From contig JAJYZJ010000003.1 of the NCBI GenBank assembly GCA_021800035.1, positions 1 through 64,000 of the forward strand: a stretch of DNA of 64,000 bases, given 5' to 3'. Each line of letters opens with the position of its first letter. The first letter of the stretch is position 1. The position numbers were made by a program, and so were the translations under genes. The notes under the pieces are model-generated. The model saw only the letters and a program-made list of their open reading frames with translations, searched no databases and had not been told where the DNA came from. Origin of the DNA: an archaeon. Lineage in GTDB: Archaea; Thermoproteota; Thermoprotei_A; Marsarchaeales; Marsarchaeaceae. Positions 56,719-61,437 of this stretch are shown in pieces.

Positions 56719-56973
56719 ATGTGTTCTTCGCAGGTCCCGCTTAAAGTATACAAGGCGCGGGGGGAAATGCGACGCGTGCTAGATTGGCAGCCTTTTACAA
56801 AGTTCGTTTTGGCGCATAGCGAACATGACGCTAGGGAAAGAATATTTTCGCTAATGGGAAGCAAACACAGGCTGAGGAGGCATCAGATAAAAGTTGAGAG
56901 TGTGTCTTTGATTACCGACCGGGAAGAAGTAGATGATGCAGTTGTGCGACAGTATATGGCTCAAAGTGGGTGA
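56719..56973 (+). CDS. rplX: Ribosomal protein LX (L18a/L20a)
   Basis: 84 residues. RVLDWQPFTKFVLAHSEHDA and FSLMGSKHRLRRHQIKVESV match archaeal LX. In the normal aIF6-LX-pfdA order. The stop overlaps the pfdA GTG. Confidence 0.9.
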   Translation: MCSSQVPLKVYKARGEMRRVLDWQPFTKFVLAHSEHDARERIFSLMGSKHRLRRHQIKVESVSLITDREEVDDAVVRQYMAQSG

Positions 56974-57425
56974 GCCATATGTCTGAAAGCACCAATCCGG
57001 AGAGCAAATACGGCCTGCTTCAAAAACTTCTTGGGGACTATGAATACTTAGGATTGGTCGCACAAACGATCGAAGAGCAGCTTCGGCTGGTTGAAGCGGC
57101 CCAAACTGAGATGCTCACCACTATTGGTTCAGTGCGAGAACTCGTCGAGAAGGGAAAAAACAGAGAGACATTCGTACCTTTGGGTAGCGGCGTGATGGTT
57201 CCGATGAGCGTCCACTCACCAGAAAAGATGCTCGTGCTTCTGGGAGAAAACGTTTACGCAAAGCTCTCTGTAGACAAGGTCGAAGAATACCTGAGTGCCA
57301 GGGTAAAGCTACTCGGCGAGCGAACTAACGAACTTGTAAGAGACTACTCAACTACACTTCAGCGAATCCAGCTTCTTCAGCCCAAGATTAACAGACTGGC
57401 TCAAGAACTGCAAGTTGGCGGGTAG
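56970..57425 (+). CDS. pfdA: Prefoldin alpha subunit
   Basis: 151 residues: two long coiled-coil helices (residues 10-55 and 100-148) joined by a beta hairpin (FVPLGSGVMVPMSV, GENVYAKLSV). Prefoldin hands unfolded chains to the thermosome, which is also in this window. Start GTG 56970 or ATG 56979. Confidence 0.92.
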   Translation: MSHMSESTNPESKYGLLQKLLGDYEYLGLVAQTIEEQLRLVEAAQTEMLTTIGSVRELVEKGKNRETFVPLGSGVMVPMSVHSPEKMLVLLGENVYAKLSVDKVEEYLSARVKLLGERTNELVRDYSTTLQRIQLLQPKINRLAQELQVGG

Positions 57426-57430
57426 CATGC

Positions 57431-58333
57431 TTGTTTGAGTCCTTAAAGAAGGCATTCGCTTCAGTCACTCAGGCAGTATCTTCCCGCGACCTTTCTCGTG
57501 AAGAAATAGAGAGGACACTGTCTGCGCTTCAAACCCAGCTAGTGCAGGCCGACGTTCCTTTGGAGAGCGCGGTGCAAATCTGCTCCAGTATAAGAGGGGA
57601 GCTAGAGCTTCTGAGGGTTAAGAGGCTCGAGCGCAGCGATGCGACTGTCAACGCAGCTGTTAAAATGGTCCTGATGAGGCTACTTGAGGTCACGAAAGCC
57701 CCGGACTTTGTCTCACTCGTGAATTCAAAGATTCGTGAAAGAGGGATATGTGTTCTAGTCTTTTTTGGAGTGAACGGCAGTGGCAAAACCACGACAATTG
57801 CCAAAGTTGGATCGTTGCTAAAGGATAGAGGGTTTCTGCCTATATTCGCGGCTGCGGATACTTTTCGCGCGGGCGCTATCGAGCAGTTGAAGGAGCACGC
57901 GGAGAGATTGCAGATCCCGCTAGGACAGACATCATACGGCCGCGATCCGGCCTCAGTAGGCTACACTGCCATTCAGGAGGCAAAGAATAAGGGTCGCAAT
58001 GTTGTTCTCATTGATACCGCCGGTCGGATGCAGAACGACGTGGGTCTCGTGGACCAAATGGATAAAATAGTTCGTGTTACGAAGCCCGACTATCGTTTGT
58101 TTATAGCAGACAGCTTGGTGGGTAACGATTCATTAAATCAGTTAATCACTTTTAACCAGCGGATAGGTATAGACGGTGTCATCCTGACTAAGTTAGATGC
58201 GGACGCAAGAGGTGGGGTCATACTCGCAATAGCCATGTCTGTTAAAAAACCGATTGTTCTGGTCGGTACCGGACAAAGTTACCGAGACCTGCAGAGCTTT
58301 ACTCCGGATTTCTTTCTCAGCAAATTGTTTTAA
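57431..58333 (+). CDS. ftsY: Signal recognition particle receptor FtsY
   Basis: 300 residues: an N domain of helices, then the NG GTPase with GVNGSGKTTTIAKVG near 114, AAADTFRAGAIEQL, DTAGRMQND near 196 and TKLDADARGG near 254. It lacks a long acidic A domain. It docks the SRP (RNA at 53962) to the membrane. TTG start at 57431, 5 bp after pfdA. Confidence 0.96.
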   Translation: MFESLKKAFASVTQAVSSRDLSREEIERTLSALQTQLVQADVPLESAVQICSSIRGELELLRVKRLERSDATVNAAVKMVLMRLLEVTKAPDFVSLVNSKIRERGICVLVFFGVNGSGKTTTIAKVGSLLKDRGFLPIFAAADTFRAGAIEQLKEHAERLQIPLGQTSYGRDPASVGYTAIQEAKNKGRNVVLIDTAGRMQNDVGLVDQMDKIVRVTKPDYRLFIADSLVGNDSLNQLITFNQRIGIDGVILTKLDADARGGVILAIAMSVKKPIVLVGTGQSYRDLQSFTPDFFLSKLF

Positions 58334-58357: not shown

Positions 58358-59272
58358 ATGCGCGTTAACTCTCTTAGGGGTCGCAGCATTCTCTCGGTCG
58401 ATGACCTTAGCATCCATGAACTTCAAGATCTCATCGACTTTTCAGAAAGGATAGGGAAGTCAATGACGGCCGGCCTGCTCAGCCTCGAGAAGGAAAACAG
58501 TGTGCTTGCAGCGATATGCCCAGCCGAAGCGAGAGCTCGCTTCTATGCCGAGGTTGCCGCACGGAGGCTCCGGGCTTCTACAGTCCGGTTCGGATGGGAA
58601 GAGGCGAAGGGGTCGCTCGGGGTAAATGTCTTCGATTTCGCACGCTCTATCGGAAGGATTGTGGATTGTGCCGTTGTTGAGGGTTCCGACCACTCATTCA
58701 TGGAGGGTATTGCAAAAACGTCGAACATCCCAGTCTTAAACGCTTTGAGTGAAAAGGAAGCACCCGCGCTGGCACTTGCTGATTTCGCGACTCTGAAAAG
58801 CAAATTGGGCAAGTTATCGGGTCTGAATCTGGCATATATAGGAGCGGGCGACGCAATATCCAACTCGGTGATTCTTGCTGCAGCGAAATGTGGAGTAAAG
58901 TTGAAGGTTGCCACATCAGACCGAGCTCGCCCCAATATACAAGGCATAGCTCGTGCTAAGGTCGAAGCAGAGAAGACCGGTGGTAGCGTGGAGCTAGTGA
59001 GTACTCCTAGGCACGCGCTCGAGGACGCCGGAGCAGTTTACTGGAATTTTCCCCAGTCGCAGGGAGGGGATACGCCGGTCGAGTTTCCGAGTATCTCTCT
59101 CGAAGCATTGTTAGATTCTGGCGCCAAAAAGGGAGTATTGGTACTCCGTGGTTTCCCCATGGGAGGAAATGTGATCAGGCATGATTCCCCCATGGGTCTG
59201 AACGAGATTTTTTGGGAACAGAGTGAGAACAGAATATACTCGTTTATGGCTCTACTATCTTCCGTCATCTGA
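58358..59272 (+). CDS. Carbamoyltransferase-like protein lacking catalytic motifs
   Basis: 304 residues, collinear with aspartate/ornithine carbamoyltransferases from start (LSVDDLSIHELQDLIDFSE) to end. The carbamoyl-phosphate STRTR motif reads EARAR (both Arg kept, Ser and Thr lost), the HPxQ motif reads APAL (His and Gln lost), and HCLP near the end is replaced by LRGFP. It is therefore unlikely to be a normal transcarbamylase. It lies between ftsY and dtdA and may have a new role. Overlaps the upstream-extended dtdA frame. Confidence 0.7.
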   Translation: MRVNSLRGRSILSVDDLSIHELQDLIDFSERIGKSMTAGLLSLEKENSVLAAICPAEARARFYAEVAARRLRASTVRFGWEEAKGSLGVNVFDFARSIGRIVDCAVVEGSDHSFMEGIAKTSNIPVLNALSEKEAPALALADFATLKSKLGKLSGLNLAYIGAGDAISNSVILAAAKCGVKLKVATSDRARPNIQGIARAKVEAEKTGGSVELVSTPRHALEDAGAVYWNFPQSQGGDTPVEFPSISLEALLDSGAKKGVLVLRGFPMGGNVIRHDSPMGLNEIFWEQSENRIYSFMALLSSVI

Positions 59273-59282
59273 GAGTGTACAC

Positions 59283-60038
59283 TTGCTCATAGCTGGTTCC
59301 ACGATTGACCCCGCGAGCAGGCTAATGATGCAGGCAGTAAGGTCGCAGCTTTTCACGAGACCTGCGTCTACATTCGGGATTGAACTCGTGGAGATTGCAA
59401 CTGAGCTTACTTCTTCGTCAGTACCTCCTCTACCAGAGGCAGAGACCTACATATTTCTCAGCAGACATAAGGGAATGAAGCCATGCTTCACTCTGCACGC
59501 CACCGGAAACCCCACATCAAGGAATGACCTTGGCGGGAAACCCCGTGAACTTGGGATTGCGGCCCCCTCGTTGGCGCTTCAGATTCTAAGGGAGCTCTCG
59601 AAAGAACCTATAATGCCGGTAGTCCATGAGGCCACTCATCATGGTCCAACTTCTCTCGCGGGTAGGGCTCTTTTTGTAGAGGTGGGCTCAGGGGAGGAGC
59701 AGTGGAGCTCCAAACCGCTCTGCGAATATGCGGCCAGATCAGTCGTAAACGCAATCACGAGCTCGTACTCTGGAGTTAGTTATGCGTGCGCTTTTGGCGG
59801 CCCTCATTACGCGTCAAAATTTACGGAATACGCTATGCTACACTCTACAGGTCTAGGACACATAATATCCAAGCACGCATTCAAGGACATCAATGCCGAG
59901 GTTATATTACAGGCGATTGAGAGGAGCCTTCCGAAGCCAGATAAGGCTCTGGTTGACTGGAAAGGACTCACTTCAGACCAGCGTAATTTCCTGTTGAGGG
60001 AGTTTTCTAGACTCGGCTTTCCATACGAAAGGATATGA
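59283..60038 (+). CDS. dtdA: D-aminoacyl-tRNA deacylase, archaeal type
   Basis: About 251 residues. LHATGNPTSRNDLGG, MPVVHEATHHGPTSL and CAFGGPHYASKFT (the GGxHY motif) define DtdA, which removes D-amino acids from tRNA. The TTG at 59283 gives LLIAGSTIDPAS at the N-terminus, as in the family; a GTG at 59223 would overlap the previous gene by 50 bp. Confidence 0.92.
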   Translation: MLIAGSTIDPASRLMMQAVRSQLFTRPASTFGIELVEIATELTSSSVPPLPEAETYIFLSRHKGMKPCFTLHATGNPTSRNDLGGKPRELGIAAPSLALQILRELSKEPIMPVVHEATHHGPTSLAGRALFVEVGSGEEQWSSKPLCEYAARSVVNAITSSYSGVSYACAFGGPHYASKFTEYAMLHSTGLGHIISKHAFKDINAEVILQAIERSLPKPDKALVDWKGLTSDQRNFLLREFSRLGFPYERI

Positions 60039-60306: not shown

Positions 60307-61437
60307 CTAGATATAGCCAATTTTTGCTGGCGGCTTGGTGGAAATGTCGAGATAGCAAGCCGAAATCTGGTTATTGAGTGAGACCAACTCCTCACCTATT
60401 TTTGGAATAAGCGACCAGTTTCTCGAAGAGGGTACTGCTACGTTGAAATCGGTGCTCTCGAAATGACGGAGAAGTGCAATATATTTCCCCTCAGGATTGC
60501 CCGTGGCTATACAGTATCCAATTCTCGTCAATCTGCTTGTAATTGATACCCTTTCTTGAAGGCTGGCAAGGGCCACATTTGAGGGGATAAAGAGTTCGCC
60601 TGTGTCATCCTTTGCATTGATGAGAAGCATGCGCCCCCAACCATTTATACACGGAACCGGCTCGCAGAGCTCTGAAATCTCGCTGAATACCGTGCCAACA
60701 TTCCTGAACGAATTATAAACAACATTCTCAATCTGGCTCTTATCCTTAGGCTTGGTCTTGGTGTTGTCTCCTATGGCCGTGAAATAGTACCTGCCTGGTA
60801 CGGAACCACCGATTGCCTTCTCTACTCTCCTATCTGCCACCCTCGCAAGGTCCATTTTCTCTTGAGATACCTGGCCCACACACTGGGACGCCAAGCCGAT
60901 TCTTGACATTGGATAGAACGGAAGAGCAAAGCTTGCTTCTAGCCCCGCGAATATTCGCGCAAGTGAACCTAACGACCTTCCCGCGAGAGGGCAGTACATG
61001 GTAGTAGTCCCAGACTTGAATCGCATCGTTCTTGGTGGTGTCGCTGGAACAGGCTCTTCAAAAGATGGAGACAGAATGTTGCCGGCAACCAGTGTCCTAG
61101 CCCTATACTTTGCGGATAGCTTCGCGAGTACCCCCTTCACGGCTTCGGCATAGCTTGCGATCTTTTCTTCCACAGTTCGAGCCCGCAAGAGGGGCTTGAA
61201 GTCTTGGCGCGCATCTATGGTTTTCACAAGAAGCCCATTGATCCTGAAGAACTCATGGATAGCTGAAGTGAACTCTTGATCTTCGAAGCCGGTATTCAGG
61301 AACACGATCTCGTTGTCTTTTGCCCACTTCTGTGCCAGATATGCCGTTACGAGATCCTGATACGACTGCGTAACAACGCAAAGTACCTTTTCCTTCTTTC
61401 CAAGATGCTCGAAAACGGAGGAGCTTACCGTGGACAC
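60307..61437 (-). CDS. GMP-synthase-like protein without a PP-loop
   Basis: 376 residues, collinear with the ATP-pyrophosphatase subunit of GMP synthetase. EIVFLNTGFEDQEF (VFVDTG in GMPS), LVAGNILSP (GTIYPD), and the closing SACYLDISTKPPAKIGYI (VYDITSKPPATIEWE) support this. The ATP-binding SGGxDS at the N-terminus reads TQSYQD, so the usual adenylation is probably lost. No glutaminase domain. The TATA box at 61469-61478 fits the GTG at 61437. Role unknown. Confidence 0.65.
   Translation of the reverse strand: MSTVSSSVFEHLGKKEKVLCVVTQSYQDLVTAYLAQKWAKDNEIVFLNTGFEDQEFTSAIHEFFRINGLLVKTIDARQDFKPLLRARTVEEKIASYAEAVKGVLAKLSAKYRARTLVAGNILSPSFEEPVPATPPRTMRFKSGTTTMYCPLAGRSLGSLARIFAGLEASFALPFYPMSRIGLASQCVGQVSQEKMDLARVADRRVEKAIGGSVPGRYYFTAIGDNTKTKPKDKSQIENVVYNSFRNVGTVFSEISELCEPVPCINGWGRMLLINAKDDTGELFIPSNVALASLQERVSITSRLTRIGYCIATGNPEGKYIALLRHFESTDFNVAVPSSRNWSLIPKIGEELVSLNNQISACYLDISTKPPAKIGYI

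Follow-up and report, generated by a model that had tools for sequence, protein, structure and literature searches.

What does a gene do once it has kept the whole chain of a metabolic enzyme and lost the residues that make the enzyme work? The question is raised by a reading frame in the window (the whole 64,000-nucleotide stretch of archaeal DNA analysed here), which a sequence-only reading had described as an intact carbamoyltransferase look-alike, lying between ftsY and dtdA and devoid of its catalytic signatures. To place it, we compared the window's genome (G000) with a second genome of the same genus of uncultured archaea (G001; JAKAWJ010000003.1, 'archaeon isolate YP4.bin50') and with three sister-genus genomes that have an ornithine carbamoyltransferase (OTC; G002, G004 and G005).

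Identity and active site of the window gene

The reading frame (58358-59272, plus strand) is intact and encodes a protein of 304 residues. Its homology to carbamoyltransferases is far beyond chance, as judged from three sets of scores: PF02729 and PF00185 each match above their cut-offs, over the full length; P. furiosus OTC aligns end to end (2e-31 to 3e-31); and the OTC model TIGR00658 is the best match (6e-42, 143.8 bits). The latter score stays below the equivalog cut-off of 280.85 bits, the syntenic OTCs of the sister genera reaching 393-400. PyrB/ATC was considered as the parent and ruled out, OTC models and the OTCs of the PDB scoring far better and the tree placing the protein among OTCs. 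The predicted fold (pLDDT 82.7) finds its best PDB match in P. furiosus OTC (1a1s, TM 0.89), and segments of three or more residues with pLDDT below 50 occur only at residues 233-242 and 267-280, which are former substrate loops. Given that the input alignment was dominated by OTCs, this prediction denotes compatibility rather than proof. By both domains, full length and fold, the protein is a member of the carbamoyltransferase fold family.

Alignment with 25 working OTCs bears out the motif changes noted earlier (STRTR to EARAR, HPxQ to APAL, and the change of HCLP), and with them the description of an intact gene whose signatures have gone. The altered sites map as follows.

58358-59272 (+): catalytically degenerate ornithine carbamoyltransferase (pseudo-OTC), 304 aa; from reading frame, models, synteny, tree and alignment
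58526-58540 (+): EARAR for STRTR, residues 57-61 (S57E, T58A, T60A; R59 and R61 retained); from alignment
58607-58633 (+): former 80's loop, residues 84-92, RGE changed to LGV, holding 3 of the 18 differences to the sister genome G001; from alignment
58679-58681 (+): E108 for the carbamoyl-phosphate-binding Arg of strand b4 (E. coli OTC R106); from alignment and PMC4581275
58760-58771 (+): APAL for HPxQ, residues 135-138; from alignment
59042-59065 (+): WNFPQSQG for TDVWVSMG in the ornithine (SMG) loop, residues 229-236; from alignment
59147-59158 (+): RGFP for HCLP, residues 264-267; from alignment

The damage thus extends beyond the three signatures first named, to the b4 Arg, DxxxSMG (now NxxxSQG, which lacks what the ornithine loop requires), GDGNN (now GAGDA) and the RGE of the 80's loop. 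Substrate residues were tallied in E. coli OTC numbering after the table given in the family review (PMC4581275). Nine of the 11 carbamoyl-phosphate residues are changed (S55E, T56A, T58A, R106E, H133A, Q136L, C273G, L274F and Q82K), leaving R57 and R319, and four of the five ornithine residues are changed, leaving S235. In the window protein's own numbering, the retained positions comprise R59, R61, the prolines of HPxQ and HCLP, S234 of the SMG loop, and R292. The phosphate pocket now holds two glutamates, E57 and E108, the second of which ends a predicted strand (104-108). None of the motifs on which transcarbamylase competence depends (SxRT, HPxQ, HxLP and the b4 Arg) is present, and a protein with these residues would probably be unable to perform the OTC reaction.

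Sequencing error is ruled out as the source of these losses, because the independent genome G001 carries the identical set in an orthologue of 94% amino acid identity at the same genomic place. The refuting case named in the sequence-only reading, a genome with no other pyrB and motifs that are errors, does not apply, because G000 and G001 each encode, besides the degenerate gene, an OTC and a PyrB that are both canonical. The degenerate form was seen in these two genomes only, each a MAG of about 84-85% completeness: no further member was found among 10 genomes of the order, a search of the genome collection gave only the same-genus record, and a plasmid search returned distant OTCs only. In five other genomes of the same family or order (G003 and G006-G009), all small (0.6-0.9 Mb, 62-80% complete), neither the window protein nor the OTC family, arginine deiminase or carbamate kinase found a match, as though strongly reduced lineages were also part of the order.

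Ancestry of the gene and the arginine pathway

Where did the gene come from? Its surroundings are the following.

56970-57425 (+): presumably a pfdA-like gene, so called from its position and general knowledge, in the conserved neighbourhood; from synteny
57431-58333 (+): ftsY, SRP receptor GTPase, the upstream neighbour in an inherited arrangement; from Pfam-type models and synteny
59283-60038 (+): dtdA, D-aminoacyl-tRNA deacylase, with a probable TTG start 10 bases past the pseudo-OTC stop; from models and synteny

Synteny by tblastn recovers the order pfdA-ftsY-canonical OTC-dtdA in G004 and G005 and pfdA-ftsY-canonical OTC, with dtdA not adjacent, in G002; the three syntenic OTCs have every motif. 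In the tree, they form one clade with the window gene (support 98/89), separate from the other OTC of its genome. Tree and synteny together therefore establish the window gene as the orthologue of the working OTC that this archaeal family carries next to ftsY, and its position as the ancestral one. Origin from the OTC of the arginine deiminase operon was weakly rejected (p-AU 0.041). The window protein shares 41% identity with its working orthologues, and the stem branch to its genus measures 1.4 changes per site under LG and 3.1 under C20, sister branches measuring about 0.2-0.4; divergence between G000 and G001 is 0.06 in the tree, comparable to that of the working PyrB pair.

This ancestry bears on a role in targeting or tRNA quality control, which had been proposed from the position between ftsY and dtdA and to which the tight spacing of the three genes in the window would be congenial. 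Searching for orthologues and conserved neighbours, as the sequence-only reading had advised, showed that the place is indeed conserved, but that its occupants in the sister genera are canonical OTCs. The neighbourhood is therefore older than the loss of catalysis and uninformative on any new role; with dtdA not even adjacent in G002, a function shared with these neighbours is highly improbable. Of the earlier suggestion of a new function, what endures is that a non-catalytic role is probable, since the signatures are lost and the gene is selected (see below); its tie to ftsY and dtdA does not.

Downstream in the window, the minus strand carries a GMP-synthetase-like gene (60307-61437, 376 aa) with a weak C-terminal match only (PF00958, 22.5 bits; TIGR00884, 40.5 bits) and TQSYQD where the SGGxDS PP-loop is expected. 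It is very strongly constrained between G000 and G001 (dN/dS 0.038). The sister genera match GuaA far better (about 211-217 bits). In G000 and G001 we detected no clear canonical GuaA, although a 22-residue fragment on contig C57 of G000 may be a GuaA cut by the contig end.

The arginine pathway differs between the genera. All of argC, argG and argH are present in G002, G004 and G005, and in G005 they lie beside carAB. In G000 and G001, argG is absent from the assemblies, argH is represented by far weaker family matches and argC by weak partial ones, and carAB sits on long contigs without flanking arg genes. As both MAGs are only about 84-85% complete, absence of the three genes is likely rather than certain; that the two genomes agree and that the carAB flank has been stripped supports real loss in the window's genus. 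The second OTC of G000 is probably catabolic, because it forms one contiguous group with genes for an arginine deiminase-like protein and a carbamate kinase (contig C98), an arrangement that recurs in G001. Genes for arginine deiminase and carbamate kinase occur in the sister genera too, apart from the single OTC of those genomes. The arginine deiminase-like protein (locus L001, 1995-3296; G000:C98:24961-26259) reaches only 61 bits with the arcA model, whose cut-off is 489, but retains the C-terminal motif HCMTC; it is 45-51% identical to relatives from G021 as well as from the sister genera.

Given that argC, argG and argH are present in the sisters and absent from the window's genus, the window gene is best seen as a former biosynthetic OTC, decommissioned in place with the loss of its pathway. 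We envision the following course of events. The gene would be the original biosynthetic OTC (argF) of the archaeal family, still following ftsY. The window's genus would have lost arginine biosynthesis (argC, argG and argH), the OTC reaction being covered by the separate enzyme of an argF-arginine deiminase-carbamate kinase operon. A burst of change in the old OTC would then have wiped out its carbamoyl-phosphate and ornithine sites, and what persists would be a non-catalytic protein whose two-domain fold is under purifying selection and whose old active-site loops drift. We assign a probability of roughly 60% to this reading, in which catalysis went with the arginine pathway and the protein is kept as a scaffold or binding pseudoenzyme.

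Selection on the retained chain

Is the gene kept, or is it merely not yet gone? Conceivably, a protein whose job disappeared with the arginine pathway could be a relic in slow decay, its frame still open only owing to recent divergence or to the harm that a frameshift would do to translation of dtdA, whose probable start lies so close behind the stop. Between G000 and G001, pseudo-OTC has an overall dN/dS of 0.29 (38 nucleotide differences, two genomes), about twice that of working enzymes of the same genomes (0.06-0.16 for the working OTC, PyrB and arginine deiminase) and above most neighbour genes (0.00-0.15, with one other gene at 0.24). This elevation and the lack of constraint on the former active-site loops are what slow decay would lead one to expect. 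It is nevertheless an unlikely account. When the 38 differences were placed neutrally, equally few amino acid changes arose in 0.6% of runs (P=0.006), and outside the former active-site loops dN/dS is 0.157, as in working enzymes, compared with 3.05 inside them. The window gene contains no stop, frameshift or long deletion despite its distance from the working orthologues, whereas neutral simulation from the G005 gene to 60% identity left the frame free of stops in 1 of 300 runs. Its GC3 equals that of its neighbours, and 59 of the 69 conserved hydrophobic columns remain hydrophobic. Between these two genomes, pseudo-OTC is thus retained under purifying selection.

Constraint is distributed unevenly along the chain. 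Nine of the 18 amino acid differences fall within 33 of the 304 residues, in the former 80's, SMG and HCLP loops; the corresponding P of 1.7e-5 flatters the effect, because the 80's loop joined the partition after the differences had been seen; restricted to the two low-pLDDT segments, the test yields P=0.0013. No such clustering was found in pairs of working OTCs. This pattern bears on the idea that the cleft has been rebuilt for another ligand, as a new enzyme or a small-molecule sensor, with E57 and E108 facing R59, R61 and R292. The changed residues of the pocket floor (57, 108, 135, 138 and 264-266) are identical in G000 and G001, and the family is known to switch substrates by loop changes (PMC4581275). 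However, it is precisely the loops responsible for cleft closure and substrate specificity that evolve freely, and all described enzymes of the family retain SxRT, HPxQ and HxLP (PMC4581275), which makes a new ligand in the old cleft quite doubtful. Since the scaffold is selected and the cleft loops are not, a structural or binding role is favoured over a new enzyme in the old cleft.

Possible roles and known relatives

How might a decommissioned OTC still be useful? The protein may act structurally or in regulation, through its surface and not by way of a new catalytic site in the old cleft. As the most economical partner, we propose either further copies of itself, in a trimer, or the arginine-catabolic OTC, in mixed trimers. 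In a more specific and tentative version, which we consider rather unlikely, the dead OTC would be a regulatory or structural subunit that, for example in mixed trimers with the OTC of the arginine deiminase operon, sets the flux of arginine fermentation.

The locus offers a small and clear example of an enzyme decommissioned in place after loss of its pathway, and one that can be read from genomes: the orthologues on both sides of the change, the pathway genes that are missing, the enzyme that took over, and a shift of selection from the active-site loops to the scaffold. It also advises caution in two respects. Gene neighbours mislead on function if the neighbourhood is older than the change, and genes of this type should not be annotated argF.

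We classify the window protein as a pseudoenzyme variant within a known family and would not call it a new kind of protein. Like anabolic OTCs (ArgF, TIGR00658, unknotted group), it has the full two-domain fold, is their orthologue by tree and synteny, and retains the ENR motif, the arginines of STRTR and many structural glycines and prolines; unlike them, it lacks SxRT, HPxQ, HxLP, DxxxSMG, the b4 Arg and the 80's loop, and scores 143.8 against the required 280.85 bits. It resembles YgeW/YTCase, ureidoglycine transcarbamylase, AOTCase and SOTCase (PMC4581275) in being a paralogous or divergent form with a changed second-substrate site, but those enzymes keep the carbamoyl-phosphate site, which is lost in the window protein. 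The inactive dihydroorotase domain of fungal CAD-like proteins, a pseudoenzyme of the carbamoyl-phosphate pathway (PMC4581275), likewise shows the fold of a metabolic enzyme outliving catalysis, although in that case the fold is another one and sits within a known fused complex. In the papers searched, we came across no work on an inactive OTC paralogue. A significant number of transcarbamylase-family sequences do lack the essential motifs and possibly have unknown functions (PMC4581275); the window protein shares their missing motifs, and whereas those sequences were noted there without study, here the origin, metabolic context and pattern of selection have been worked out.
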